Both the position numbers and the translations under genes were made by a program. The notes beneath the pieces were generated by a model. It worked only from the letters and a program-made list of their open reading frames with translations, did no database searches and was not told where the DNA came from. Shown piece after piece: positions 5,752 to 26,125 of a stretch of DNA of 33,522 bases. The stretch covers positions 1 to 33,522 of the forward strand of contig JACCXO010000031.1 in NCBI GenBank assembly GCA_013696975.1. The letters run 5' to 3'. Numbering within the stretch: the stretch's first letter is position 1; every line of letters starts with the position of its first letter. This stretch comes from Nocardioidaceae bacterium. Its GTDB lineage: Bacteria; Actinomycetota; Actinomycetes; Propionibacteriales; Nocardioidaceae.

Positions 5752-5754
5752 GAA

Positions 5755-5900
5755 GAGTCTCCTTCTCACGCCTGTGAGGTGAGCTGTCGGGTTCGAGCGA
5801 GAAGGTGCTCGGCCGCTGTCAGAAGGCGGCTTGACCCCAAGCACTCAGGAAGCAAGTGCACAGAATTGGGTCCCCCACTCCTGCCCCGGTGTGAGAATTG
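5755..5900 (-). promoter_or_regulatory. c-di-AMP riboswitch (ydaO/yuaA leader)
   Basis: Minus strand reads GGGGGACCCA...GCTTGGGGTCAA...CTCGAACCCGACAGCTCACCTCACAGGCGTGAGAAGGAG directly upstream of the NlpC/P60 start; boundaries approximate. Confidence 0.85.
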
Positions 5901-6171
5901 CTTTCTGTGTCGATGGTTTTGGGGATCACCCGCGCTGAGGGGGCAGGACTCGGCGTCCAGAGCGGGTGCTATGTAATTAAGGCTCGGCCGATGCTGTCAG
6001 GAGTTATGCGTATCGCCAAGTGGTTGAGCGGAGAAAGATCACCTGGCGAGGCTCAACTTAACCTGGGTGTGGCGCAGATCACACCGCGTGAGAGACTGCT
6101 CTTCACGGCACGTAGCGGCTCTCGGACGCAGCGCAGGAGCAAACCATCTCATTGCCGCCGATGCAACTGGC

Positions 6172-7140
6172 TCAGGAAGGAACTGACTCAGACAGAAGCC
6201 TCTGCCAGTCGCCGAGAAACCGCCCCAACCCGTATCTCTCCAGAGCCACCTCTCGAGCCACCTCGCCCACAGCGCGTGCCTGTTGCGGCTCGTCGATGAA
6301 CGTGGAGGCTGCCCGCTTGAGGTCCTCGAGCCGAGTCGACAAGACACCAGCCTCCGGCGGCACGGCCATCACGGCTTCCGTCGTGGCAAGCGCCACCACC
6401 GGCATTCCCAGCTGCATGGCCTCGAGCAAAGACAACCCCAGCGACGTCCAACGCGAGGTGTGGACATAGACCCGGCGGCGGGCCATGGCGGTATGCAGCT
6501 CGCGCTGCGCCACGTCATCGAAACAGCGCAACCTCTCGGCATCCAGCCCGAGCACTGCACCCAGTTGCTCGACCCGCATGCCGAACACGTCGAGTGGCGC
6601 TGCCGCTGACAACTGACCGAGCAAGTCCGCGCCGACGGCGCGGCCGCGACGAACGGGGTCGTTCACGCAGACAGCCGCTCGCGCGATCTCGCCGGTGTAG
6701 AGATGGCCGGGGTCGACGATGCCGTGCTCGATCACCGTTGTTCGCGCCGACCCGCAGTCCCAAAGGAGCTGGTTGAAGTGCGTCACGTGAACAACCGGTA
6801 TGTCGGTCTGCCCCGCCAGTGGGTGCCTCGTGAACGGCACGTCACCGCCTGGAGTGTTGTGCTCGACATAGACAGCCGGCACGTCTCGCCCGACCCGGCG
6901 CTCGGTCCAGGTTTCGACCAGCTGGGCTTCATGTGGGCGTTGCAGCACCACCACGTCGATGTCCTCGTCGCGGAGCCCGCCAAAGGGCACTTCACGGACG
7001 CTCGTCGGCCAGTCCCAGGTGCGGGCGCGTCCGAGGCCGTCAGGTCCCCGATCGGGAGTGACCGGGACGACATACTCGTGGTTTCCCTGCACGAACGCTG
7101 TGCTCCACGAGCCGTGTACGTGCCACAGCAAGATCTTCAA
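6172..7140 (-). CDS. Glycosyltransferase (GT4/GT1-like)
   Basis: LKILLWHVHGSWSTAFVQGNHEYVVPV... C-terminal HTSRWTSLGLSLLEAMQLGMPVVALATTEAVMAVP donor-binding pattern; TTG start at 7140 preceded by AAGGG, ORF open to 7326. Confidence 0.85.
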   Translation of the reverse strand: MKILLWHVHGSWSTAFVQGNHEYVVPVTPDRGPDGLGRARTWDWPTSVREVPFGGLRDEDIDVVVLQRPHEAQLVETWTERRVGRDVPAVYVEHNTPGGDVPFTRHPLAGQTDIPVVHVTHFNQLLWDCGSARTTVIEHGIVDPGHLYTGEIARAAVCVNDPVRRGRAVGADLLGQLSAAAPLDVFGMRVEQLGAVLGLDAERLRCFDDVAQRELHTAMARRRVYVHTSRWTSLGLSLLEAMQLGMPVVALATTEAVMAVPPEAGVLSTRLEDLKRAASTFIDEPQQARAVGEVAREVALERYGLGRFLGDWQRLLSESVPS

Positions 7141-7163
7141 CGGTTCACCCTTGTCGCGGCAGC

Positions 7164-8495
7164 TCAGCCGAGCGGCCTGTTCGGCGAGCGGCGACCCAGG
7201 GCGTGCAGCTCCCAGCCCGCGGCGCGCCACTTGTCGGGATCGAGGAATAGCCGCCCGTCGATGGCTCGAGGTGCGGCCACGACGTCGAGGAGCGCCACCG
7301 GGTCGATGCTCTGGAAGTCTGGCCAATCGGTCAACACCATGACGAGCTCGGCGTCACGGCAGGCCGAGATGCTGTCCTCGTCATACTCCAGAGCCGGCTC
7401 CGCTCGGCGCGCGTTGCGCAGCGCCGCCGGATCGCTGACCCGAACGCGTGCACCAAGCCGGTGCAACCTGCTGGCGATGTCAAGAGCTGGGGAGTCTCGG
7501 ACGTCATCGGAGCCGGCCTTGAAGGCAGCGCCGAGCACGGTGATGTTGGCCCCGGTCACGACTCCTTCGAGCAACGAGACCGCAAGCTCTACGGTGCGCG
7601 CGCGTTGACGCAGATTGATCACGTCGATCTCGCGCAAGATCGCGGCTGGCTCTCCGACTCCCAGTTCCTGCGCACGCGCCAGGAAGGCTCGGGTGTCCTT
7701 GGGCAGGCAGCCACCGCCGTAGCCGACGCCGGGAGTGAGGAAACGCGAGCCGATCCTGGCGTCGTAGCCCAGGATCGTCGTCAGGTCTCCCACATCGGCG
7801 TCCGCTGCCTCGCACACCTCGGCGAAGAGGTTGACCAGTGATATGCGGGCCGCCAGCATTACGTTGGCGGCCGCCTTGGCCAGCTCTGCCGTCGCCAGAT
7901 CGGTCCGGACGCAAGGCACCCCGGCAGTGATGACTGGCGCGTAAACCTCACGCAGCATCAGGTCGGCCTCGTTGCTCTCCACCCCGAACACCAGCCGCTC
8001 AGGTCGCAATGAGTCCTCGACGGCATGGCCTTCGCGCAGAAACTCGGGGTTCCATGCGAGTTCGACCGCGTTTCCGCCCGGTGCGATGCGACGGACGTAG
8101 TCGCGGGCGGCGGCCGCTGTCCCGACCGGAACCGTGGACTTGCCGACCACCAGACTCGGCCCGTCGAGCAACGGTGCAAGCTGCGCAAGTGCAGACCATA
8201 AGGCCGACAGGTCCGCGGCGTGGCTGCTCTCGGACTGCGGCGTGCCGACGCAGACGAAGTGCACCTCGGCTTGCGATGCGTCGGCGTAGTCGGTCGAGAA
8301 CAACAGCTTGCCCGATCGCACTCCCTGCGTGAGCAAGCGGTCGAGACCGGGCTCTTGGAAGGGTGCCCGCCCGGTGGCGAGCCGCTCGACACGAGCAGGG
8401 TTGCTGTCGATGCCGACGACCTGATGGCCGCAGGCTGCCAGGCACGCCGCATGGGTAGCGCCGAGATAACCGGTCCCCAAGACTGAGATCCGCAC
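7164..8495 (-). CDS. UDP-glucose 6-dehydrogenase / nucleotide-sugar dehydrogenase
   Basis: VRISVLGTGYLGATHAACLAACGHQVVGIDSN...NPEFLREGHAVEDSLRPERLVFG...GVGYGGGCLPKDTRAF; GTG start at 8495 (ORF open to 9035). Confidence 0.95.
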   Translation of the reverse strand: MRISVLGTGYLGATHAACLAACGHQVVGIDSNPARVERLATGRAPFQEPGLDRLLTQGVRSGKLLFSTDYADASQAEVHFVCVGTPQSESSHAADLSALWSALAQLAPLLDGPSLVVGKSTVPVGTAAAARDYVRRIAPGGNAVELAWNPEFLREGHAVEDSLRPERLVFGVESNEADLMLREVYAPVITAGVPCVRTDLATAELAKAAANVMLAARISLVNLFAEVCEAADADVGDLTTILGYDARIGSRFLTPGVGYGGGCLPKDTRAFLARAQELGVGEPAAILREIDVINLRQRARTVELAVSLLEGVVTGANITVLGAAFKAGSDDVRDSPALDIASRLHRLGARVRVSDPAALRNARRAEPALEYDEDSISACRDAELVMVLTDWPDFQSIDPVALLDVVAAPRAIDGRLFLDPDKWRAAGWELHALGRRSPNRPLG

Positions 8496-8536
8496 GGCGA
8501 TGCTGTGCCCGTGGCGTGAGGGTTCATGCGCCGGAG

Positions 8537-8578
8537 CGGAGAACCGCTTCTCTGCCCGCCGGGAGAAGCGGTTCTCCG
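8537..8578. repeat. Perfect 16-bp inverted repeat made of two GAGAA-N4-TTCTC dyads (candidate operator or RNA hairpin)
   Basis: CGGAGAACCGCTTCTC-TGCCCGCCGG-GAGAAGCGGTTCTCCG in the divergent intergenic region 8496-8651. Confidence 0.85.
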
Positions 8579-8651
8579 GGAAAACCGTTTGTCGACCAGA
8601 GAAGTGGGCACAAGCCGGTTCTCGGCAGGCGGCTAACGAGCGGAGCGCTCC

Positions 8652-10286
8652 TTGAAGGTTCTTGGCATCAATGCCATCTTCCACGACCCGTCGGCGGCAC
8701 TCGTCGTCGACGGTGAAACCGTCGCCGCCGCCGAAGAGGAGCGTTTCTCCCGACGCAAACATGGCAAGCGGCCCGTGCCCTTCGCGGCCTGGGAACTGCC
8801 GGAGCTCGCCGCAGCCTGGTGCTTGAAGTCCGCGGGAATCGATGCCTCGGACCTTGACGCGGTGGCCTACTCGTTCGACCCTGCCCTGGCCAAGCCGGCG
8901 GATGAAATGGGACTCAACGACCCTTGGGACCACCTCCGACTGACGTATGCCCACAACGCCCCCAACTTCTTGGCCACAGCTTTGCCAGGGCTGGACCCGG
9001 CGGCTGTGCGTTATGTGCCCCATCACGTGGCGCACGCGGCTTCAGCCGGGCTCGCCTCCCCGCACGACCAAGTCGACGTTCTCGTGCTCGACGGCCGCGG
9101 AGAGTCAGTGAGCCACCTGGCGGGCCGGTATGACGACGGCGCGCTCGAGATACTCGCCAGCCAAGCCCTGCCCCACTCGCTGGGCCTGCTGTACGAAGAC
9201 GTGACCCAGCACCTCGGATTCCTGCGCAGCAGTGACGAGTACAAGGTGATGGCCCTGGCGTCATACGGCCACCCCAGGCACCTCGACGAGCTGCGCCATT
9301 CGATCTACACCACAGGTGATGGCGGTTTCCACACCGATCCGGTCGACTGGGCCAGCCTGGTCAAGCCGCGTGGCGCTGACGAGCCTTGGAGCCAAGATCA
9401 CGCCGATCTGGCCGCGAGCGTGCAGACGCGCCTCGAGGAGGTGCTGCTCGAGCTAGCCGGGTGGCTGCAAGACCGCACCGGCGGCACCGCACTGAGTCTG
9501 GCCGGTGGGGTGGCCCTCAACTGCGTGGCCAACACCCGGCTCTACGCCGAGACGGCCTATCAGCACGTCTGGGTGCAGCCGGCTGCCGGCGACGCCGGCA
9601 CCGCGTTGGGCGGGGCACTGCACGTGGCTCGCTCCGAAGGCGACGTCACCACCGCCATGCCTGGGGCCGACCTAGGTCGGGGCTGGACCGATGACGAGCT
9701 CGAGGCCTACCTCATCACGGCCCGCGTGCCGTATACGCGACCCGACGACGTCGCTGTCGAGGTCGCCCAGTGCCTGGCGGACAACGGCGTCGTCGCCTGG
9801 TTCCAAGGACGCAGCGAGTACGGCCCGCGCGCGCTCGGCCATCGGTCCCTGCTCGCACACCCAGGCCACCCGAACAACCTGGAGCGCCTCAACGATGTGA
9901 AGGGCAGGGAGCAGTTTCGCCCCGTGGCCCCGATGGTGCGCGCCGGACGAGTGCGCGACATCTTCTCGCGCGGGCCGGCCACGTCGCCGTACATGCTGTT
10001 CGTCCACGATGTGGACCCGAGCTGGCGCGATCGCATCCCGGCGGTCGTCCACGTGGATGGCACCGCGCGCGTGCAGACGGTCGATGAGAGCAATCCCGCG
10101 CTCGCCCGCATGCTGGCTGAGTTCGAGGTCCGGACCGGTCTGCCCGTCGTCATCAACACCAGTCTCAACACAGCCGGGCGCCCGATGGTCGACGACCCTC
10201 GTGACGCCCTGGAGTGCTTCGGTTCTGCGCCAGTTGACCTGCTCGCCATCGGTCCTTTCGTCGTACGGCGACCAACGTCAAGCTGA
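8652..10286 (+). CDS. Carbamoyltransferase, NodU/CmcH/TobZ family
   Basis: LGINAIFHDPSAALVVDGETVAAAEEERFSRRKH...HHVAHAASAG...QGRSEYGPRALGHRSLLA...FRPVAPMV; TTG start. Confidence 0.95.
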   Translation: MKVLGINAIFHDPSAALVVDGETVAAAEEERFSRRKHGKRPVPFAAWELPELAAAWCLKSAGIDASDLDAVAYSFDPALAKPADEMGLNDPWDHLRLTYAHNAPNFLATALPGLDPAAVRYVPHHVAHAASAGLASPHDQVDVLVLDGRGESVSHLAGRYDDGALEILASQALPHSLGLLYEDVTQHLGFLRSSDEYKVMALASYGHPRHLDELRHSIYTTGDGGFHTDPVDWASLVKPRGADEPWSQDHADLAASVQTRLEEVLLELAGWLQDRTGGTALSLAGGVALNCVANTRLYAETAYQHVWVQPAAGDAGTALGGALHVARSEGDVTTAMPGADLGRGWTDDELEAYLITARVPYTRPDDVAVEVAQCLADNGVVAWFQGRSEYGPRALGHRSLLAHPGHPNNLERLNDVKGREQFRPVAPMVRAGRVRDIFSRGPATSPYMLFVHDVDPSWRDRIPAVVHVDGTARVQTVDESNPALARMLAEFEVRTGLPVVINTSLNTAGRPMVDDPRDALECFGSAPVDLLAIGPFVVRRPTSS

Positions 10287-11875
10287 TGACAACGCCACCG
10301 CACTCTCTTACCACCTCAGAGGCGGCGACTGCGGACAAGTCAGGAGCCAACTCAGGAGTCGAGACCTTGCCGACAACGGTCGTGGTGCCAACCCTCGCGC
10401 GGCCCAGTCTCCAGGCGATGCTGGAGGGTTTGGCGAGCGGCCACGGCCCCGCGCCCGCCGCCGTGATCGTGGTCGATGACCGCCGCACCTCTGATGACGC
10501 CCAGTCGGCTCGACAGCTCGCCGGGACTCTCAGTTATCTCGACCTCGCCAACCTGCGCGTGGTCAGCTCGGGAGGCGGTGGTCCTGCCAGAGCACGCAAC
10601 CTCGGCTGGCGCCTGGCGACCACGGAATGGGTCAGCTTCCTCGACGATGACGTGATACCCGACCCGGACTGGCGCCAGCTCCTGGCCGTCGACCTGGCAG
10701 CGGCTGACCAGGGAGTCGCCGGCAGCCAGGGCCGCGTCCGGGTGCCACTGCCGAGCGAGCGCCGGCCTACGGACTGGGAGCGGTCGACCGCCGGTCTGGC
10801 GTCGTCGCTGTGGATCACCGCAGACATGACCTACCGGCGCGCGGCGCTCAGCGCCGTCGGCGGTTTCGATGAGCGTTTCCCGCGGGCCTTTCGGGAGGAT
10901 GCCGACCTCGGACTTCGGATCTCGACAACGCAAGGACGCCTGACAACCGGTCAGCGCTGGATCACGCATCCGGTCCGTCCCGTCGATGACTGGGTCAGCG
11001 TGCGCCAGCAGCGGGGTAATGCCGACGATCTGCTCATGCGGCGCCTCCACGGCAAGAACTGGCGTAACCGCGTCGGCGCCCCGACCGGCCGCCGGTCTCG
11101 CCACCTTGCCGTGACAGCGGCAGCGACGGCCGCGGCGGGCTTCGGCGCCGCCGGCCGACGTCGACTGGCAGCCGTCGCGGCGCTCGGGTGGCTTGCCGGG
11201 ACGGCTGAGTTCGCGCGAGCCCGGATCGCTCCCGGACCACGGGACTGGCCTGAGCTGCGCCGCCTGGTCGCCACCAGTGCGCTCATTCCCTTCGCCGCGA
11301 CGTGGCACACCGCGAATGGGGCGCTGTTCCATCGCCGAGCACGACCCTGGCGGGGTCTCCCCGAGCTGGTGCTCTTCGATCGCGACGGCACCTTGGTGCA
11401 CGACGTTCCCTACAACGGCGACCCCAGCCTCGTCTCACCTGTCGACGGCGCAGCCGAGGTGCTCGACCAGCTCCGCGCTCGCGGGGTGCGCACGGGGGTG
11501 ATCACGAACCAGTCAGCGGTAGGCACTAGCCAGATCAGCCTGGACGAGATGCTGGCCGTCAACAATCGGGTCGAGGAGCTGCTGGGGCCTTTCGACTCGT
11601 GGCAGGTGTGTCCACACGGCCATCACGAGGGCTGCGCTTGCCGCAAGCCCGCCCCAGGCATGGTCAAGGACGCATGTCAGACCCTTGGTGTCGACCCCAG
11701 CCGATGCGTGGTGGTCGGCGACATCGGCAGCGACATGGAGGCAGCGCAAGCAGCTGGAGCAGCGGGGATCATGGTGCCGACCCCGGCGACTCTCGGCGAA
11801 GAGGTGAGCGCAGCGGACCTCGTCTCCCGCGACCTCGCCACGGCAGTCGCTGAGATCCTGGCCGGCCGATGGTGA
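10286..11875 (+). CDS. Fusion protein: GT2 glycosyltransferase + HAD-IIIA D,D-heptose-1,7-bisphosphate phosphatase-like (GmhB-like)
   Basis: N-terminus TTVVVPTLARPSL..VIVVDD..GGPARARNLGWRLATTEWVSFLDDDVIPDPDW (GT2); C-terminus LVLFDRDGTLVHDVPYNGDP...CPHGHHEGCACRKPAPGM..VVGDIGSDMEAAQAAG (HAD with GmhB-type Cys/His loop). Confidence 0.9.
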   Translation: MTTPPHSLTTSEAATADKSGANSGVETLPTTVVVPTLARPSLQAMLEGLASGHGPAPAAVIVVDDRRTSDDAQSARQLAGTLSYLDLANLRVVSSGGGGPARARNLGWRLATTEWVSFLDDDVIPDPDWRQLLAVDLAAADQGVAGSQGRVRVPLPSERRPTDWERSTAGLASSLWITADMTYRRAALSAVGGFDERFPRAFREDADLGLRISTTQGRLTTGQRWITHPVRPVDDWVSVRQQRGNADDLLMRRLHGKNWRNRVGAPTGRRSRHLAVTAAATAAAGFGAAGRRRLAAVAALGWLAGTAEFARARIAPGPRDWPELRRLVATSALIPFAATWHTANGALFHRRARPWRGLPELVLFDRDGTLVHDVPYNGDPSLVSPVDGAAEVLDQLRARGVRTGVITNQSAVGTSQISLDEMLAVNNRVEELLGPFDSWQVCPHGHHEGCACRKPAPGMVKDACQTLGVDPSRCVVVGDIGSDMEAAQAAGAAGIMVPTPATLGEEVSAADLVSRDLATAVAEILAGRW

Positions 11876-12984
11876 GGCGGCTACTTGGGGTCAGGCTGGA
11901 CAACGCGGGCGATGTCTTGCTGGCCGGCCCAGCTGTTCGTGCCATGGCTGCCAGGTGCGACGAACTCGTTGTGCTCGCCGGCCCGCACGGTGTGGGGGCC
12001 GCAAAGCTGCTGCCTGGTGTGAATGACGTCATGGTCTGGCGCTGCCCCTGGATCGACGCGGGGCGCCCAGCTGTCGACACTGACGACATCTCTTCCCTCG
12101 TCGACCAGATCCGTCAACGCTCTTTCGACGCAGCCGTGGTCTTCACGTCCTTCCACCAGTCGGCCCTGCCGACCGCGTTGCTCCTCCGGCTTGCCGGTGT
12201 GAGCTGGGTGGGCGCCATCAGCGATGACTATCCGGGTTCCCTGCTCGACCTGCGTCACCACGTTGACGACAACATCCCCGAAGCGCAGCGAGCGCTCTCG
12301 TTGGCCGCCGAGGCGGGATATCTTCTTCCGCCGGCCGATGACGGGCGACTGGAGGTACGACGGCCGCTCCCAGACGTGAGCCACCTTGTCGGCGAAGACC
12401 CCTATCTCGTGCTGCATCCTGGCACCTCCGTCCCCGCCCGCGCCTGGCCTGTGCATCGCTTCGCCGAGTGCAGCCAGCAGCTGTCGACTCTCGGGTGGCG
12501 GGTCGTCGTCACGGGAGCGCCGTCGGAGGCTCACCTGACGGAGGCCGTCGCCTCGCCCGGTTCCCTCGGCTCACCCGGCTCGCTCTCCTCGCCTGGGCTT
12601 GCGACGTCGGCCGGGCCGAGAGTGCTGGACCTCGGCGGTCGGACCTCGCTGCCTGAGCTGGCCGCCGTGCTCGCCGGAGCCACAGTGGTCGTCGTGGGCA
12701 ACACCGGGCCCGCGCATCTTGCGGCTGCCGTCGGCACACCCGTGGTCTCCCTCTTCGCGCCCACGGTTCCGGCTGCTCGCTGGGCGCCGTACGGCGTGCC
12801 GCACATCTTGCTGGGTGACCAGCAAGCGGCCTGTCGAGACACCCGAGCCACCCGGTGCCCGATTCCCGGTCATCCCTGCCTCACTTCGGTGACCGCACAC
12901 GACGTCTGTGAAGCTGTCACCGAGCTGGTGGGTGACCGCCAGGCGGAGCACCCTACGGTGCAGCTGGAGGAGGTAGCACAGTGA
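11869..12984 (+). CDS. Glycosyltransferase family 9 (heptosyltransferase-like)
   Basis: VRLDNAGDVLLAGPAVRAMA...YLVLHPGTSVPARAWPVHRFAE...VVVGNTGPAHLAAAVGTPVVSLFAPTVPAARWAPYG. Confidence 0.92.
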   Translation: MVRRLLGVRLDNAGDVLLAGPAVRAMAARCDELVVLAGPHGVGAAKLLPGVNDVMVWRCPWIDAGRPAVDTDDISSLVDQIRQRSFDAAVVFTSFHQSALPTALLLRLAGVSWVGAISDDYPGSLLDLRHHVDDNIPEAQRALSLAAEAGYLLPPADDGRLEVRRPLPDVSHLVGEDPYLVLHPGTSVPARAWPVHRFAECSQQLSTLGWRVVVTGAPSEAHLTEAVASPGSLGSPGSLSSPGLATSAGPRVLDLGGRTSLPELAAVLAGATVVVVGNTGPAHLAAAVGTPVVSLFAPTVPAARWAPYGVPHILLGDQQAACRDTRATRCPIPGHPCLTSVTAHDVCEAVTELVGDRQAEHPTVQLEEVAQ

Positions 12985-14195
12985 AGATCGCCATGGTTTC
13001 AGAGCACGCCAACCCGTTGGCGACGCTCGGTGGTGTCGACGCGGGAGGCCAGAACGTCCACGTGGCGGCCCTGGCGGGAGGTCTGGCTGAGCAAGGCCAC
13101 GATGTCACCGTCTTCACCCGTCGCGACGACCCGTCGGTGGCCAGGCGGGTGAACACTCCGGGCGGCTATGTGGTGGAGCACGTTCCTGCGGGACCGCCGA
13201 CCGACGTACCCAAGGACCAGTTGCTGACGCATATGCCGGCATTCGCCGCGTATCTGCACGCTCGCTGGTCCGACGACGCCTTCGACCTCGTGCACGCACA
13301 CTTCTGGATGAGCGGCATGGCCTCCGTCGAGGCGGTCAAGGGGCTGCCGGTGCCGATGCCGGTGATCCAAACGTTCCACGCACTCGGCAGCGTGAAACGG
13401 CGCCACCAGGGTCCGCGCGACACGAGCCCGCCTGGTCGCCGCAAGCGAGAGCCTTGGCTGTGCCAGACCGTCGACCATGTCATCGCCACCTGCCGTGACG
13501 AGATCGACGAGTTGCGCGCCCTGGGCCTCGACCCGGCCCGAGCGACGATCGTTCCCTGCGGGGTCGACGTGCACGCGTTCGCACCGGCACCGCCGCCGAA
13601 CAATTCTCGACCGCGACTCTTGGTGTTGGGCCGGCTCGTCGAGCGCAAGGGCGTCGATGACGTGATCGAGGCGTTGCGCCTGCTGCCAGACGCCGAGCTG
13701 GTGGTCGCCGGCGGTCCTGCCCTGGACTCGTTGAGTGCCGACCCTGAAGTATGTCGACTGCGCGGTCTGGCTACCGAAGCCGGCACCTCCGATCGGGTGC
13801 ACTTCATCGGCAGGGTGGCCCGAGAGGCCGTGCCCGCACTGATCCAGTCCGTCGACATCGTCGTCGCCGTTCCCTGGTATGAGCCCTTCGGGATGGTGCC
13901 GCTTGAGGCGATGGCCTGTGGGCGGCCGATCGTCGGCTCCGCGGTTGGGGGACTGCTCGACAGCATCGTTCCCGGTGAGACCGGTGAGCTCGTGCCGCCG
14001 CGTCGCCCTGATCTGTTGTCCCACACGCTCGCCGACCTGTTGGGCGACCGAAGCCGCAGAGCCGCCTACGGCACAGCTGGCTTCACACGTGCATCCACCT
14101 TGTACCGGTGGGAGCGAATCGCAGCTGAGACCGAGGCGGTCTACGAATCGGTGCTCGCCCGAACCAAGCCTGAAGCCGCGGAGGCACTGAGATGA
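12981..14195 (+). CDS. Glycosyltransferase family 4
   Basis: VSEHANPLATLGGVDAGGQNVHVAALAGGLAEQGHDVTVFTRR...VPWYEPFGMVPLEAMACGRPIVGSAVGG; GTG start overlapping previous stop. Confidence 0.93.
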   Translation: MKIAMVSEHANPLATLGGVDAGGQNVHVAALAGGLAEQGHDVTVFTRRDDPSVARRVNTPGGYVVEHVPAGPPTDVPKDQLLTHMPAFAAYLHARWSDDAFDLVHAHFWMSGMASVEAVKGLPVPMPVIQTFHALGSVKRRHQGPRDTSPPGRRKREPWLCQTVDHVIATCRDEIDELRALGLDPARATIVPCGVDVHAFAPAPPPNNSRPRLLVLGRLVERKGVDDVIEALRLLPDAELVVAGGPALDSLSADPEVCRLRGLATEAGTSDRVHFIGRVAREAVPALIQSVDIVVAVPWYEPFGMVPLEAMACGRPIVGSAVGGLLDSIVPGETGELVPPRRPDLLSHTLADLLGDRSRRAAYGTAGFTRASTLYRWERIAAETEAVYESVLARTKPEAAEALR

Positions 14196-14881
14196 GAGCA
14201 CAGACACCAACCGGGCGGAGCCACGTCGACGAGCTCGTGGCGGCCGCTCGATTGTTCGGACCGGGTATCGAGACCGCCGAGCGCTGGGGTGGCCTGCTCG
14301 CGCGGCGGCTGGGCGCCGGCGCTCGGCTGTTGGCAGCGGGTAACGGTGGCAGTGCGGCGCAGGCCCAGCACTTGACGGCTGAGCTGGTGGGTCGCTATCG
14401 AGACGACCGTCGGCCGCTCTCGGCGATCTGTCTCAGCGCTGAGACCTCGAGCCTGACAGCGATCATCAACGACTACCCCGCTGAGGAGCTCTTCGCCCGG
14501 CAGGTGGAGGCCCATGGCCGCGAAGGGGATCTGCTCGTACTGATGTCGACGAGTGGGCGAAGTCCCAACATCGTGGCCGCGGTGGAGCGTGGTCGCCAGT
14601 GTGGCCTCACCGTGCTGGCCTTCACCGGTCCACGACCCAACCCGCTGGCGACCGCGGCGGACGACGCGGTATGCGTCTCGTCACAGTTCACAGCCACCGT
14701 CCAAGAGCTGCACCTGGTCGCACTGCACCTCGTCTGCGCTGGGCTGGATCTCGAGCTGGCACACGGCGCGGACTCAGCCGCTGATTGCATCGCAGACACT
14801 CCCCTGACGATCCGGCAGCGGGTGGTCGCCGCCGTTGCCAACGGTCACGCGGTGCGGACACCGTCAGGGAGCCGCATGTGA
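14192..14881 (+). CDS. gmhA: SIS-domain D-sedoheptulose-7-phosphate isomerase-like protein
   Basis: LLAAGNGGSAAQAQHLTAELVGRYRDDRRPLSAICLSAETSSLTAIINDYPAEELFARQVEAHGREGDLLVLMSTSGRSPNIVAAV. Confidence 0.9.
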   Translation: MRAQTPTGRSHVDELVAAARLFGPGIETAERWGGLLARRLGAGARLLAAGNGGSAAQAQHLTAELVGRYRDDRRPLSAICLSAETSSLTAIINDYPAEELFARQVEAHGREGDLLVLMSTSGRSPNIVAAVERGRQCGLTVLAFTGPRPNPLATAADDAVCVSSQFTATVQELHLVALHLVCAGLDLELAHGADSAADCIADTPLTIRQRVVAAVANGHAVRTPSGSRM

Positions 14882-16326
14882 AGGGTCCGTTGGTCGTGCT
14901 CGGTGATGCCCTGCTCGACATAGACGTCGTCGGCCGGGCCGAGCGCCTCAGCCCGGATGCTCCGGTACCGGTCCTGGACTCTCTCGTCGAGCACGCCCGT
15001 CCCGGTGGAGCAGCATTGGCGGCTTTGATGGCTGCTCGAGACGGTCACGATGTGGTGCTCATCACGGCCATCGGTGCTGACGAAGCGGGGCGGCAATTGC
15101 GCGGCCTGCTGGCCGACATACGTCTCCTGGAGGTCGACTACGACGGGCCCACTCCCGTCAAGCGTCGCGTGCGTGCCGGCCGCCAGCCCGTCGTGCGACT
15201 CGACTCAGGAAGCACTGTCGGGCGCTACGGCGCCGTCTCGATCCAGGTCGCGACAGCGCTCACCGACGCCGCCAGCGTCCTGATCTCCGACTACGGTCGC
15301 GGCCTCACAAACGTGGCCGATGTGCGCGACCTGCTGGATCGGCGCCCACGAGTTCCGCTGGTATGGGACCCGCACCCACGCGGCGCCAGGCCCGTGACCG
15401 GCGCTCATCTCGTCACCCCCAACCAGGGCGAGGCCCGCGACTGGGCCAGTCGATACGACATTCCCCAGTCGAACGCGACTACAGCGCTGGCTCACACTCG
15501 ATCCGATGCCGCCGGGCTCACCCGGGTGTGGGAGGCCCGCGCCGTCGTCATCACCATGGGGGCGCAAGGCGCCCTGATGTCGTATGCCGACGGGGCACCC
15601 ATGGTCACACCGGCACCCGATGTGCATTGCGTCGACCCTTGCGGGGCGGGTGACAGGTTCGCTGTGTCTGCTGCGGTTGCGTTGGGCTCGGGCGACGTCC
15701 TCGCTGAGGCGGTGCAAGCGGCCGTCTCGAGCGCCTCCGCGTATGTCGCCGCCGGCGGCCCGGCTCACCTCTCCACCGTCATCTCCGCAGGCGTCCCGCA
15801 GACAGCTGGACAGGCGCTGTCAGAACCGCGGTCACGATCGAGTGGCGGTTCCGCGGACGTTGCCGAGCTGGTCGCCAGAGTGCGCGGCGCGAACGGCGTC
15901 GTGGTCGCCACCGGCGGCTGCTTCGACTTGGTGCACGCGGGCCACGTGGCGACTCTCGAGGCGGCGCGTCGCCTCGGGGACTGCCTCATCGTGTGCCTCA
16001 ACTCCGACGATTCCGTGCGCCGTCTCAAGGGGCCGGGCAGGCCGCTCGTCTCGATGTCGGACCGCGCTCGGGTGCTCAACGCCTTGGGTTGCGTCGACGC
16101 CGTGATGATCTTCGACGAGAACACCCCGGTCGAGGTGCTGCGACAACTCCGACCAGACGTCTGGGTCAAGGGCGGCGACTACGCCGGACACCTCATGCCC
16201 GAGACGGCTGTGCTCGAGACCTGGGGTGGACAGACGGTCGCCCTCCCGTATCTCAGCGGTCATTCCACCTCGCACCTTGTACAGACCGCCGCGTCTTCCA
16301 CGCAGCATCCAATTCAATCCCTTTGA
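14878..16326 (+). CDS. hldE: Bifunctional heptose-7-phosphate kinase / heptose-1-phosphate adenylyltransferase (HldE-like)
   Basis: PfkB part ...GDALLDIDVVGRAERLSPDAPVPVL...DPCGAGDRF; cytidylyltransferase part VVATGGCFDLVHAGHVATLEAARRLGDCLIVCLNSDDSVRRLKGPGRPLVSMSDRARVL...VKGGDY. GTG start within ATGTGA (ORF open to 14785). Confidence 0.92.
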   Translation: MKGPLVVLGDALLDIDVVGRAERLSPDAPVPVLDSLVEHARPGGAALAALMAARDGHDVVLITAIGADEAGRQLRGLLADIRLLEVDYDGPTPVKRRVRAGRQPVVRLDSGSTVGRYGAVSIQVATALTDAASVLISDYGRGLTNVADVRDLLDRRPRVPLVWDPHPRGARPVTGAHLVTPNQGEARDWASRYDIPQSNATTALAHTRSDAAGLTRVWEARAVVITMGAQGALMSYADGAPMVTPAPDVHCVDPCGAGDRFAVSAAVALGSGDVLAEAVQAAVSSASAYVAAGGPAHLSTVISAGVPQTAGQALSEPRSRSSGGSADVAELVARVRGANGVVVATGGCFDLVHAGHVATLEAARRLGDCLIVCLNSDDSVRRLKGPGRPLVSMSDRARVLNALGCVDAVMIFDENTPVEVLRQLRPDVWVKGGDYAGHLMPETAVLETWGGQTVALPYLSGHSTSHLVQTAASSTQHPIQSL

Positions 16327-16342
16327 TCCAGGAGTCAGTCGT

Positions 16343-17026
16343 ATGCCGGTCGGAACAGTTCTCATCACAGGCGGATCATCCGGGCTCGGTGCCGCCACCG
16401 CCGAAGCGGTCGCTCAGGCCGGCGGCCGCCCCGTGGTGCTGGACCGGGTCACGCCGGCTGCCGACTACGACTGTGAGGTGGTCGACCTCGCTGACCGCCG
16501 AGGCACCGAAAACGCCGTACGTTCGGTCTCGGATCGCGTCGGCGGGATCGACGGGGTGGTCACCTGCGCGGGCATCGACTCGTGCGGTCGACTCGAAGAC
16601 GTCGACGCAGACGAGTGGGACCAGGTGGTGCTCGTCAACCTGCTCGGCACCGCGGCCGTGGTGCGGGCAGCCATGCCTGACTTGATCGAGCGGCGCGGCC
16701 GAGTGGTGACAGTGGCCTCGACGCTGGGCCTGCGGGCTGTCAGCGATGCGACCGCCTACTGCGCGTCGAAATTCGGTGTCGTCGGTTTCACGCGTGCCCT
16801 CTCGGCGGAGACCGCCGGCCGCATCGGTGTGACCTTGCTCGTCCCCGGAGGCATGCACACGCCGTTCTTCGATGGGCGCACCGAGCAGTACAAGCCGCCA
16901 CCGGACGCGAAGCTCAACCAACCGCACGACGTGGCTCGGGCGATCCTCTTCGCGCTGGAGCAGCCAGCCGGCTGTGAGATGCGCGAGATACTGATCGCGC
17001 CCTCGATGGAAGGATCCTGGCCCTGA
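16343..17026 (+). CDS. SDR family oxidoreductase
   Basis: VLITGGSSGLGAATAEAVAQAGG...CAGIDSCGRLEDV...YCASKFGVVGFTRALSAE; ATG 16343 (ORF open to 16226). Confidence 0.92.
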   Translation: MPVGTVLITGGSSGLGAATAEAVAQAGGRPVVLDRVTPAADYDCEVVDLADRRGTENAVRSVSDRVGGIDGVVTCAGIDSCGRLEDVDADEWDQVVLVNLLGTAAVVRAAMPDLIERRGRVVTVASTLGLRAVSDATAYCASKFGVVGFTRALSAETAGRIGVTLLVPGGMHTPFFDGRTEQYKPPPDAKLNQPHDVARAILFALEQPAGCEMREILIAPSMEGSWP

Positions 17027-17046
17027 CCGACCGTCCCCTCGCCTTC

Positions 17047-17982
17047 GTGCTGAGGGCTCTAGGTCTGGGCGACCTGCTGGCCGGCATACCGGCGCTGCGT
17101 GCGGTGCGCCGGGCGCTCCCCGAGCATCAGCTGGTGCTCGGCACCCCCGCAGCGTTTGCGCCCCTCGTCGCTCTCGCTGACGCCGCGGACCGGGTACTGC
17201 CGGTGACCGGCCTCGAGGACATCGAATGGACGGGGCCCGCGCCGGACGTCGCTGTCAACCTGCACGGCAAGGGTCCGCAGAGTACCGAGCTCCTGCTCCG
17301 GCTTGGGCCACGTCGCCTGGTCGCGTTCGCACATCCCGGCCTGGGAGTCGTCGGACCAGCGTGGCGAGCTGACGAGCACGAGGTCGCGCGATGGTGCCGC
17401 CTGGTCGCAGAGTCCTTGGCGGTCCCGGCCGAACCTGGCGAGCTGGATCTCCGTCTCCCGGCCATCGACCCGCCGATGCGCCGGGCGGTGGTCATCCACG
17501 CCGGAGCGGCATACCCGTCTCGGCGTTGGCCCCCCGAGCGATTCGCCGCCGTGGCGAGGTGGGCCGCTGACCAGGCTCTACCGTTGGCCGTGACGGGCAG
17601 CGGCGCAGAACGCGGGCTGGCTTCGGAGGTGGCCGCCGCCGCCGGTCTCCCAGCGGGCGCGGTGCTCGCCGGGCGGACGAGCCTGCTCGAACTCGCCGCA
17701 CTCGTCGGACATGCCCGACTGGTGGTGTCAGGTGACACGGGGGTAGCGCATCTCGCTACCGCCTTCTCGACACCGTCCGTCGTCTTGTTCGGACCGATCC
17801 CGCCGACGCTGTGGGGACCGCCGAAACGGCGCCAGCACGTGGCGATCTGGCATGGGACCGGAGCTGGTGACCCTTGGGGCAGGACGATCGACCCAGCCTT
17901 GCTGCGGATCAGCGTCGATGAGGTGCTCAGCTCGGCAGAGGCACTTCTCGCTGCGACGCAAACCACTCGATCGTGTTCGTGA
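17047..17982 (+). CDS. Glycosyltransferase family 9 (heptosyltransferase-like)
   Basis: LRALGLGDLLAGIPALRAVRRALPEHQLVLG...VVIHAGAAYPSRRWPPERFAAVARW...LVVSGDTGVAHLATAFSTPSVVLFGPIPPTLWGPP; possible CTG start at 17023. Confidence 0.92.
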   Translation: MLRALGLGDLLAGIPALRAVRRALPEHQLVLGTPAAFAPLVALADAADRVLPVTGLEDIEWTGPAPDVAVNLHGKGPQSTELLLRLGPRRLVAFAHPGLGVVGPAWRADEHEVARWCRLVAESLAVPAEPGELDLRLPAIDPPMRRAVVIHAGAAYPSRRWPPERFAAVARWAADQALPLAVTGSGAERGLASEVAAAAGLPAGAVLAGRTSLLELAALVGHARLVVSGDTGVAHLATAFSTPSVVLFGPIPPTLWGPPKRRQHVAIWHGTGAGDPWGRTIDPALLRISVDEVLSSAEALLAATQTTRSCS

Positions 17983-18892
17983 GGCCCACCTCGGCATCAA
18001 CGTGTGGTTGCCAGCCAAGCAGCTGGTGAGCCAGCGAGATGTCGGGGCAGCGGACCCTCGGGTCATCGGTGGGCAGGTCGACGAACGTGATCGGCGCCGA
18101 CGAGCCGACGAGCCGTTTGATCCGCTCCGCAAGCTCGAGCATGCTCATCTCGTCACCGTTGCCGATGTTGACCGGGCCGGACTCACAGCTGGCAGCGAGC
18201 GCCAAAACCCCGGCCACAGTGTCGTCGACGTAACAGATGGAACGGGTCTGGCTGCCGTCGCCGGCGACGGTGATCGGCTCGTCGTGCATCGCCTGGGAGA
18301 TGAAGGTCGGGATGGCGCGGCCGTCATCTGGCCGCATCCGGGGACCGTAGGTGTTGAAGATCCGCACGATCGCGGTGTCCAGCCCGTATGCCGTCCGGTA
18401 CGCCGTCGTGAGCGCCTCACTGAAACGCTTGGCCTCGTCGTACACGCTGCGCGGTCCGACGGGGTTGACGTTGCCCCAGTAGGTCTCGCGCTGCGGGTGC
18501 TCCAGCGGGTCGCCGTAGACCTCTGACGTGGACGCCATCACGAAGCGTGCGCCCTTGTCTCGCGCCAGTTCAAGTGCGTGCATGGTGCCGAGGCTGCCGA
18601 CCTTCATCGTCTCGACCGGCAGCCGCAGATAGTGCGGCGGCGACGCTGGTGAGGCGAAGTGCATCACCCAGTCAACTGGGCCCTCGATAACGAGGCCTGC
18701 CGAGACGTCAGCCTCGACGAACTCGAAGCCTTGGCGGTCCAGCAGGTGGGCCACGTTGGCCGTCATACCCGTGCTGAAGTCGTCAACGCAGACGACCGCG
18801 GCACCCCGAACACTCAACACCTCGCACAGCCAGGATCCGACGAAGCCGGCGCCTCCGGTGATGACGACGCGACGGGGTTCGGATCTGACCAT
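17927..18892 (-). CDS. NAD-dependent epimerase/dehydratase, UDP-glucuronate decarboxylase (UXS)-like
   Basis: VVITGGAGFVGSWLCEVL..VVCVDDFSTG...VMHFASPASPPHYLRLPVETMKVGSLGTMHALELAR..RFVMASTSEVYGDPLEHPQRETYWGNVNPVGPRSVYDEAKRFSEAL. Confidence 0.92.
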   Translation of the reverse strand: MVRSEPRRVVITGGAGFVGSWLCEVLSVRGAAVVCVDDFSTGMTANVAHLLDRQGFEFVEADVSAGLVIEGPVDWVMHFASPASPPHYLRLPVETMKVGSLGTMHALELARDKGARFVMASTSEVYGDPLEHPQRETYWGNVNPVGPRSVYDEAKRFSEALTTAYRTAYGLDTAIVRIFNTYGPRMRPDDGRAIPTFISQAMHDEPITVAGDGSQTRSICYVDDTVAGVLALAASCESGPVNIGNGDEMSMLELAERIKRLVGSSAPITFVDLPTDDPRVRCPDISLAHQLLGWQPHVDAEVGLTNTIEWFASQREVPLPS

Positions 18893-22485: not shown

Positions 22486-24948
22486 CTAGACCAGTGAAGC
22501 AGTGACGGGCAAAGCGGTGGCAGGAATCGGAGCGGGACTCGAGCTGTCTTGCCGGCTCGCGAGCAGGGCGACCATTTCGCCGGCGTTCATCGGACGCGCG
22601 AACAGGTAACCCTGCCCCATCGAAGCACCAGTGTGCAGGGTCAGGTGTCTGAGCTGACTCTCGCGCTCGACTCCCTCGATCACCACGTCTACGCCCAAGG
22701 CCTCGCCCATGACGACGACGGAGCGCACCAACGAGCAGGCTCTTTCATCGTCGTCGATGCGCTCGATGAACGACTTATCGATCTTCAGGATGCACACCGG
22801 CAGACGTTGTAGGTAGCCGATGGACGAGAATCCGACCCCGAAGTCGTCGATGGCGAACCGGAAGTCAGCCGCAGCAAGCTCGGTCATCGTGGCAAGGGTC
22901 GTCGGGTCATGGTTGATGAAGTCGCGTTCAGTCACCTCGAGGACGAGATGCACATCGCCCATCAGAGTCCTGGCCGACTTGACGCGCTCGACGAACCCCT
23001 CGATCTGTAGGTGCTTCGCCGGTAAGTTGATGCCAATCGCGATTGCTCTTCCGGCTGCCGCGCGCAACCGCGGTGCGTCCGCGGTCACGATGTCCAGCAC
23101 CAGCTCCCCCAAGTCAACAATCAGACCGCTTTCTTCGGCAGTTGGCACGAACAGATCCGGTGAAATGAGCTCCCCGTCGCGGCGCCACCGAACCAGCGCC
23201 TCGACTCCGTAGATTTCGCGTGTGTTCAGGTCGACCATCGGTTGGTAAAAGACCTCGAGTTCGCGTGCCTGAACCGCTTGGCGCAGCCTTTCTACCAGCT
23301 CCAGCCGTTGACGATGTTCCTCACCGAAGGCCGACCTGTAGGTCTCGAACCGGTCCTTGCCACGGCTCTTGGCGTAGTACATGGCGAGGTCGGCATGACT
23401 GAGCAACGCATCCCCATTTGCATCCGCGGTGAACCATGCGACACCGATCGACGTCGTCACGGACACATCCCCGCCGAGCAGGTGGATGGGTTCGCGTAGC
23501 GCCCGCAGGATCCGTGCGCAGATCGTCTCCACCTCGTGCGGCTCTTGGACACTCTGCATGAGGACAGCGAACTCATCGCCGCCGAGACGAGCGACAGTGT
23601 CCCCTCGCCGGATGCTGGCGGCGAGGCGCCGGCCAACCTCGGCGAGCAAATGGTCCCCTGCGCTGTGCCCAAACAGGTCGTTGACCCGCTTGAAGCTGTC
23701 AAGATCGCAGAAGAGGATCGCAGCCTGCGCATTGCTCGAGGCCCTGTCCTCGAGCGCTCGCTGAACTCGATCCATGAACAAGGCTCGGTTGGCGAGGCCG
23801 GTGAGCGGATCATGCCAGGCGAGGTGGGTCATCGCATCGCTGAGGTGGAGACGGGCGAGAGCGTCTTCGGCGACGGCAGCAAGCGCAGCCAGACCGTTCT
23901 CGTCGTCCGCTGCAGTGGACTGAGCTCGACTGAGAGACGGGCCGACGATCCAGAAGTCTTCGGTGGGGTCGTGGACCGCTACGCCGATCTGTCCGAGGGC
24001 GGGTGGGGCTGTGCCGAGACTGACCCGCGAGTCGTGAATCAGCTCCGTCGCACCACTTCGCACAGCCGTCAGCAGGGACGGGCGATCATCGACGTTCTGC
24101 ACTTTCATCGCTGTCTCGAGCAGCACCTTGAGGCGGCGGGAGTGTTCAACACCGCGTGTCTGCGCCCGAGAGGCGATGACTATCGTTGCCACCGGGACCG
24201 CTAGCAGCACCGAGGCCCAGCCGGGCAAGGCTGACACCACAAGAGCGGCTAGATACCCGAGCGAGCTCGTTGCGAGTGAGGTGGTGAGCGCCGTGAGTCC
24301 ACCCGTTGGGGTGAGCTCGACACCCAACGTCGTGGAGTCCTCCAAGCTCAGGGCAACCGCTGTCACCAGGATGTCGGTAGTCAGGAAGACGGTGGCGCCG
24401 AGTCCCATCGCCAACAGCTCCCGGGGAGCAGTCACCTCGCCGGCTCGCGCCAGCTCGATGGCCAGCAAAGCAACGGCAGCTGCAATGATCCCGATCCCTG
24501 CGTTGAAGGCCCTGGTCAAGCGTGGCTTGTGCCTGAAGGACTGCCCCAGCGTCGTCCCTATCGACCACACCGTCAACGCCTCAGCCGCGCTCGTCGTGGT
24601 AGCAAGGAAGATCAAGACGCAAACGTCCATGCCTATCTCCATGCCACCGGACGTGCGTCGCTGGGCGAGCAGCAGCGGGAACCAGCCGAGGACCATGATC
24701 ACCGGAATGGACAGCAACAAGGCCGGCTGCATCGACTCCGGCTCCCACCACAACCACGCAGCGGCGCCGACTCCGATGGCGCCGCCGCTCACCGCCACAC
24801 CGATGTCAAAAATGCGACTCAGGTGCGCTTGGGCCACTGGGCCGGATGTGGGTTCGCGCTCAGCAGTGACAACGGCAGGCTCAACCGTCAGCCGTTCTAC
24901 GGTCACGTGAACAGCCTCGGCACTTCCCAGGAGCGGAGACGCATGCAA
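22486..24948 (-). CDS. Membrane-anchored GGDEF/EAL diguanylate cyclase-phosphodiesterase
   Basis: N-terminal TM region; RRGDTVARLGGDEFAVL (I-site RxxD and GGDEF intact); YQPMVDLNTREIYGVEALVRW and DDFGVGFSSIGYLQRLPVCILKIDKSFI (EAL). Confidence 0.95.
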   Translation of the reverse strand: MHASPLLGSAEAVHVTVERLTVEPAVVTAEREPTSGPVAQAHLSRIFDIGVAVSGGAIGVGAAAWLWWEPESMQPALLLSIPVIMVLGWFPLLLAQRRTSGGMEIGMDVCVLIFLATTTSAAEALTVWSIGTTLGQSFRHKPRLTRAFNAGIGIIAAAVALLAIELARAGEVTAPRELLAMGLGATVFLTTDILVTAVALSLEDSTTLGVELTPTGGLTALTTSLATSSLGYLAALVVSALPGWASVLLAVPVATIVIASRAQTRGVEHSRRLKVLLETAMKVQNVDDRPSLLTAVRSGATELIHDSRVSLGTAPPALGQIGVAVHDPTEDFWIVGPSLSRAQSTAADDENGLAALAAVAEDALARLHLSDAMTHLAWHDPLTGLANRALFMDRVQRALEDRASSNAQAAILFCDLDSFKRVNDLFGHSAGDHLLAEVGRRLAASIRRGDTVARLGGDEFAVLMQSVQEPHEVETICARILRALREPIHLLGGDVSVTTSIGVAWFTADANGDALLSHADLAMYYAKSRGKDRFETYRSAFGEEHRQRLELVERLRQAVQARELEVFYQPMVDLNTREIYGVEALVRWRRDGELISPDLFVPTAEESGLIVDLGELVLDIVTADAPRLRAAAGRAIAIGINLPAKHLQIEGFVERVKSARTLMGDVHLVLEVTERDFINHDPTTLATMTELAAADFRFAIDDFGVGFSSIGYLQRLPVCILKIDKSFIERIDDDERACSLVRSVVVMGEALGVDVVIEGVERESQLRHLTLHTGASMGQGYLFARPMNAGEMVALLASRQDSSSPAPIPATALPVTASLV

Positions 24949-25264: not shown

Positions 25265-26125
<861 letters not shown>

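Follow-up and report, generated by a model that had tools for sequence, protein, structure and literature searches.

A cwg-type gene cluster with a predicted heptose nucleotide pathway in a Nocardioidaceae genome

The gene cluster at positions 6172–18892 of a 33,522-nucleotide stretch of DNA (the window) from a Nocardioidaceae MAG (1.88 Mb, 82.5% complete) is best explained as a Nocardioidaceae form of cwg, an actinobacterial operon already known from Streptomyces. Judging from the predicted chemistry of its enzymes, its product is likely a heptose-containing, probably carbamoylated oligosaccharide or glycolipid of the cell envelope, for which UDP-GlcA and UDP-xylose would probably serve as additional sugar donors. 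A sequence-only reading of the locus had left cwg unmentioned; given the correspondence to this known operon, the cluster is not an unexplained novelty.

Genes of the window were called with Pfam and NCBIfam profiles and with PDB relatives, and all ORFs of the cluster are intact. From 8652 to 16326, neighbouring genes on the plus strand overlap by 1–7 nt at five junctions (10286/10286, 11875/11869, 12984/12981, 14195/14192 and 14881/14878), as the sequence-only reading had described, and HldE is separated from the following SDR gene by 16 nt. The most likely start of HldE is the GTG at 14878, rather than 14785. The five overlapping junctions suggest that the plus-strand genes form a single operon. 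All of the GmhA, HldE, GmhB, GT9, GT4 and GT2 activities previously placed in this locus were found by profiles. The earlier inventory, correct in the genes that it named, missed the carbamoyltransferase, the nucleotide-sugar dehydrogenase, the SDR and the UDP-glucuronate-decarboxylase-like protein. It also listed the GmhB-like HAD and the GT2 as separate, whereas they are one fused protein (10286–11875, plus strand; profiles and aligned motifs).

The GmhA-like sedoheptulose-7-phosphate isomerase (14192–14881, plus strand) scores 152 bits with TIGR00441, under the equivalog cut-off of 209, and its best PDB relatives are phosphoheptose isomerases (GmhA). When aligned to GmhA and DiaA of E. coli, it retains the counterparts of H61, E65, Q172 and H180 of E. 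coli GmhA, which we take to be the zinc and catalytic residues of this enzyme. E. coli DiaA lacks the equivalents of E65 and H180, and the identification of the window protein as DiaA was rejected on this Glu and His. In the tree, E. coli GmhA and DiaA are placed together on long branches, which does not separate the two families, so the window protein is called GmhA by its residues and its context. A grouping of the SIS or PfkB proteins with non-heptose families had been considered earlier; the kinase falls with HldE, and for the SIS protein it is the catalytic residues, not the tree, that favour GmhA.

HldE (14878–16326, plus strand) would combine a heptose-7-phosphate kinase and a heptose-1-phosphate nucleotidyltransferase in a single chain, with a GAGD motif in the PfkB kinase and HAGH (HxGH) in the nucleotidyltransferase. 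Its best profile is PRK11316, with 265 bits versus 56 for ribokinase, and the kinase tree places it among HldE-type kinases, including that of E. coli, and apart from RbsK (100/100). A ribokinase identity was rejected by these scores and this tree. The enzyme stays under the equivalog thresholds (265 versus 521 bits for NF008454; 178.6 versus 181.5 for TIGR02199). Since GmhA, HldE and the GT9 proteins score under NCBI equivalog cut-offs, they are divergent family members; at all positions checked by alignment, the catalytic residues of E. coli GmhA, HldE and GmhB are kept. The predicted synthesis of NDP-heptose by the cluster is well supported. Of the heptose-containing glycan proposed in the sequence-only reading, the nucleotide pathway is upheld by profiles, catalytic residues and kinase tree, while the glycan itself stays a proposal.

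The C-terminal GRSTT motif, linked to nucleotide selectivity, carries R in 60 of 80 relatives and H in 18. The window HldE (motif GHSTS) and its two congeners have H at this position, as mostly do the HldE proteins of Geodermatophilaceae. Arginine there is reported to permit the use of CTP and UTP, and it is not strictly needed for nucleotide promiscuity (PMC11461863, PMC11573728). Because H replaces R, ADP-heptose is the likelier product, and we make the weak prediction that the window enzyme would form it rather than another NDP-heptose. In relatives from Arthrobacter and Microbacteriaceae (loci L080, L095, L102, L104, L106, L121, L123, L124, L125 and L130), the cwg-type HldE has a second HldE within a few kb of it that is distant in sequence (~30% identity); the two of these second enzymes tested in a tree fall in a separate clade.

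The phosphatase domain of the fused GT2 protein is of the HAD-IIIA type and, aligned to E. coli GmhB, keeps the DxDGT nucleophile and the Cys-His-Cys-Cys zinc ligands. The N-domain of HisB has the same DxDGT and zinc site, so the GmhB assignment is decided by context. The same fusion is found in 13 sampled loci, those of Geodermatophilaceae and others included, and the two genes are separate in Streptomyces. Two heptosyltransferase-like GT9 proteins were identified on the plus strand, GT9a (11869–12984) and GT9b (17047–17982), with 101.5 and 94.1 bits for PF01075 against a gathering score of 22. GT9a has WaaF/WaaC as PDB relatives and lies under the equivalog cut-offs of TIGR02195/02193; GT9b (89 bits with TIGR02193) has a DTG..HL motif, as in WaaC. 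Both are predicted to transfer heptose. GT4b (12981–14195, plus strand) is MshA-like by profiles, at a score far under the MshA cut-off. GT4a (6172–7140, minus strand, PF00534, start inferred) is a conserved cluster member, divergent in the window and inside the operon in Streptomyces.

Further sugar enzymes complete the cluster. The O-carbamoyltransferase of the NodU/CmcH/TobZ family (8652–10286, plus strand; PF02543 and PF16861) has TobZ/GdmN and novobiocin carbamoyltransferase as PDB relatives, with a best E of 4.8e-85. The dehydrogenase at 7164–8498 (minus strand), of the UDP-glucose/GDP-mannose dehydrogenase family (PF03721/00984/03720), exceeds the cut-off of TIGR03026 with 383.7 bits, its GTG start being inferred from a profile that begins at ORF residue 182. 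It is probably a UDP-glucose 6-dehydrogenase (UGDH), which would supply UDP-GlcA. The protein at 16343–17026 (plus strand) is, by its PF00106 match, assigned to the short-chain dehydrogenase/reductase (SDR) family. A UDP-glucuronate decarboxylase (UDP-xylose synthase)-like protein (UXS-like; 17927–18892, minus strand) has human UXS1 as its closest solved relative, at 326.7 bits versus 148.8 for the next family. It was also considered as HldD, and this was rejected because UXS1 is the best match and HldD exceeds its cut-off in none of 16 genomes. This absence of HldD over cut-off leads us to expect a D,D-heptose.

In 2002, Hong et al. reportedly counted cwg among the first known sigma-E targets. 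The cwg ('cell wall glycan') operon of S. coelicolor is vancomycin-inducible and sigma-E-regulated and comprises 12 genes, SCO6179–6190 (PMC6767563, PMC5839063). Published labels are a 'dehydratase' for SCO6182, transferases for SCO6185 and SCO6188, a phosphoheptose isomerase for SCO6186 and a bifunctional synthase for SCO6187 (PMC5839063). The gene order in the Streptomyces relatives, UXS-Carb-GT2-HAD-GT9-GT4-GT4-GmhA-HldE-GT, fits the labels of SCO6180–6188, provided that the 'dehydratase' label of SCO6182 belongs to the HisB-like HAD, as we infer; the match is one between the loci of these relatives and the published SCO labels. By position, the UXS-like gene is the equivalent of cwgA in Streptomyces. 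Every gene of this set is present in the window, which thus shares with Streptomyces cwg the UXS-like protein, carbamoyltransferase, GT2, GmhB-like HAD, GT9, two GT4 proteins, GmhA, HldE and a further transferase. In contrast to Streptomyces, the window has GT2 and HAD fused, the UXS-like and GT4a genes on the minus strand, and UGDH and SDR added. In the literature, neither a structure for the cwg glycan nor a report of heptose in a cwg product was found.

The published cwg sigma-E promoter (PMC6767563) is found ~190–220 bp upstream of the UXS-like gene in four Streptomyces, with one mismatch in S. flaveolus, two in each of two others and three in S. coelicoflavus. This near-exact copy is the only such match in each of the four loci, and none of the loci compared has the promoter without a mismatch. 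The window has GAGAAG(C/T)G repeats instead and no recognisable sigma-E site; the pattern AAC-N15..18-CGTC was not found in 8250–8760 or before UGDH. Because the sigma-E promoter characterises the Streptomyces regulon, we assign the cluster to cwg by the genes it contains and not by how it is regulated. Of the six GAGAAG(C/T)G half-sites in the window, three lie in the 153-bp divergent intergenic region (8499–8651), clustered within 8537–8611, where there is also a perfect 16-nt inverted repeat (8537–8552/8563–8578). Genome-wide, the full palindrome GAGAANSSNTTCTC is present just three times, and two of these copies are in this region, which may be an operator. It also contains an element, GAGAAGTGGGCAC, the like of which is found at a similar position ahead of the carbamoyltransferase gene in relatives from Nocardioidaceae.

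In a sample of the phylum, 23 of ~296 other genomes encode a nearly full-length HldE at an E of ~1e-100 or better; within the family itself, six of 24 other genomes do. The loci around these matches carry the neighbouring cluster genes. In 80 named loci, picked by HldE similarity (hence biased to relatives of the window HldE, and some ending at contig ends), GmhA is present in 79, GT4b in 78, GT4a and GT9a in 75 each, HAD in 73 and GT9b in 67; the UXS-like gene is found in 49, the carbamoyltransferase in 41, the SDR in 33 and UGDH in eight, mostly Nocardioidaceae. Carriers include Streptomyces, Geodermatophilus, Blastococcus, Arthrobacter, Micromonospora, Parafrankia and Amycolatopsis, and the named loci closest in sequence to the window cluster are those of Nocardioidaceae MAGs. 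This neighbourhood survey, which had been proposed from the sequence, shows a gene set co-conserved across actinobacterial families. As the genes are syntenic in the 80 loci from many families, often in identical order, the cluster is more than a chance assembly.

The LPS-less background presumed from the sequence is supported for the host and its relatives. LpxC (PF03331) was found neither in the window genome (82.5% complete) nor in 25 relatives (20 of the 26 genomes being of good quality), and the same search did detect it in four control genomes, among them E. coli. With LpxC absent, LPS core is not the product of the cluster, and its interpretation as an LPS core locus was rejected. The NDP-heptose enzymes and GT9 transferases resemble those of the Gram-negative LPS inner core (GmhA/HldE/GmhB/HldD and WaaC/WaaF), but in the window host, without LpxC and with no HldD over cut-off, there would be no lipid A acceptor and the heptose would probably be of the D,D form.

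In the proposed pathway, GmhA would isomerise sedoheptulose 7-phosphate, the kinase domain of HldE would form heptose 1,7-bisphosphate, and the GmhB-like domain fused to GT2 would take off the 7-phosphate. The C-terminal domain of HldE would then activate the sugar to NDP-heptose, most likely ADP-heptose. Heptose would be transferred by both GT9 enzymes, and other sugars would be added by GT2 and the two GT4 enzymes, with UDP-GlcA (via UGDH) and UDP-xylose (via the UXS-like enzyme) as plausible donors. The probable role of the carbamoyltransferase is to modify a sugar, possibly heptose as in the case of WapO, with a carbamoyl group. The oligosaccharide would be assembled on an acceptor in the cytoplasm and end in the cell envelope. 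The analysis shows the enzyme families, the catalytic residues, the layout of the operon and its correspondence to cwg, and from these we propose how sugars are transferred, that there is an acceptor, and that the product is exported and acts in the envelope. Within the cluster, no gene for a flippase, polymerase, ABC exporter or wall ligase was identified, and no export gene was recognised among the recurring neighbours, whose ORFs were judged without a profile scan; the most recurrent extra ones are antisense reading frames or a further GT2.

Parts of this pathway have known counterparts. Tang et al. in 2022 reportedly described actinobacterial NDP-heptose synthetases, tridomain types included, so that heptose nucleotide synthesis as such is not new in actinobacteria; unlike the tridomain types, the window enzyme is didomain, with GmhA separate. 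In Pseudomonas, WapO accounts for carbamoyl-heptose in the LPS core (PMC8005017). There, by description, a carbamoyltransferase lies next to heptosyltransferases, as in the window, but in an LPS context. The septacidin and hygromycin B pathways, also compared by description, take their heptose from sedoheptulose 7-phosphate like the window pathway; antibiotic scaffold genes were not recognised among the window proteins scanned.

That the operon makes a secreted, septacidin-like heptose natural product instead of an envelope glycan appears unlikely. The carbamoyltransferase does belong to the TobZ/GdmN antibiotic-tailoring family, the lack of recognised export or polymer machinery counts in the same direction, and ADP-heptose is a septacidin precursor, as cited in PMC10948575. 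However, the scan of window proteins gave no PKS, no NRPS and nothing else that would build an antibiotic scaffold, and several glycosyltransferases, two of them GT9, are encoded. Broad conservation and the envelope-stress sigma-E control of the Streptomyces counterpart (PMC6767563) also point to an envelope glycan. It is quite improbable that the pathway is degenerate, or that GmhA and HldE are paralogs with a shifted substrate acting on another sugar phosphate: the missed equivalog cut-offs and the H of the window HldE at a position that is R in 60 of 80 relatives would fit such a shift, but the catalytic residues checked are all kept, the ORFs are intact and the gene set is co-conserved. 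Protein-modifying bacterial heptosyltransferases are known (PMC11461863), and the activated heptose could serve an adhesin-type heptosylation of proteins; with neither an adhesin nor an oligosaccharyltransferase recognised among the cluster genes, and with five glycosyltransferases and a carbamoyltransferase that suggest an oligosaccharide, this is very improbable.

Elsewhere in the window, two c-di-AMP (ydaO/yuaA) riboswitches are located at the starts of genes for an NlpC/P60 protein (5754–5901, minus strand) and a transglycosylase/LysM protein (25321–25483, plus strand), which is ordinary for actinomycete wall hydrolases. A GGDEF-EAL protein of 820 aa is encoded at 22486–24948 (minus strand).

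For the preferred reading, a cwg-type envelope glycan, the enzyme identities (heptose nucleotide pathway, two GT9 proteins, carbamoyltransferase, UDP-xylose synthase) point to specific constituents to look for in the cwg glycan. Tentatively, many LPS-less actinomycetes might make an envelope oligosaccharide that derives from NDP-heptose, is carbamoylated and includes xylose and/or glucuronic acid, a chemically undescribed class of glycan, and would hence contain NDP-heptoses of the kind that ALPK1 senses. NDP-heptose synthesis is no mark of LPS, which matters wherever LPS or ALPK1-active metabolites are inferred from genome annotation.
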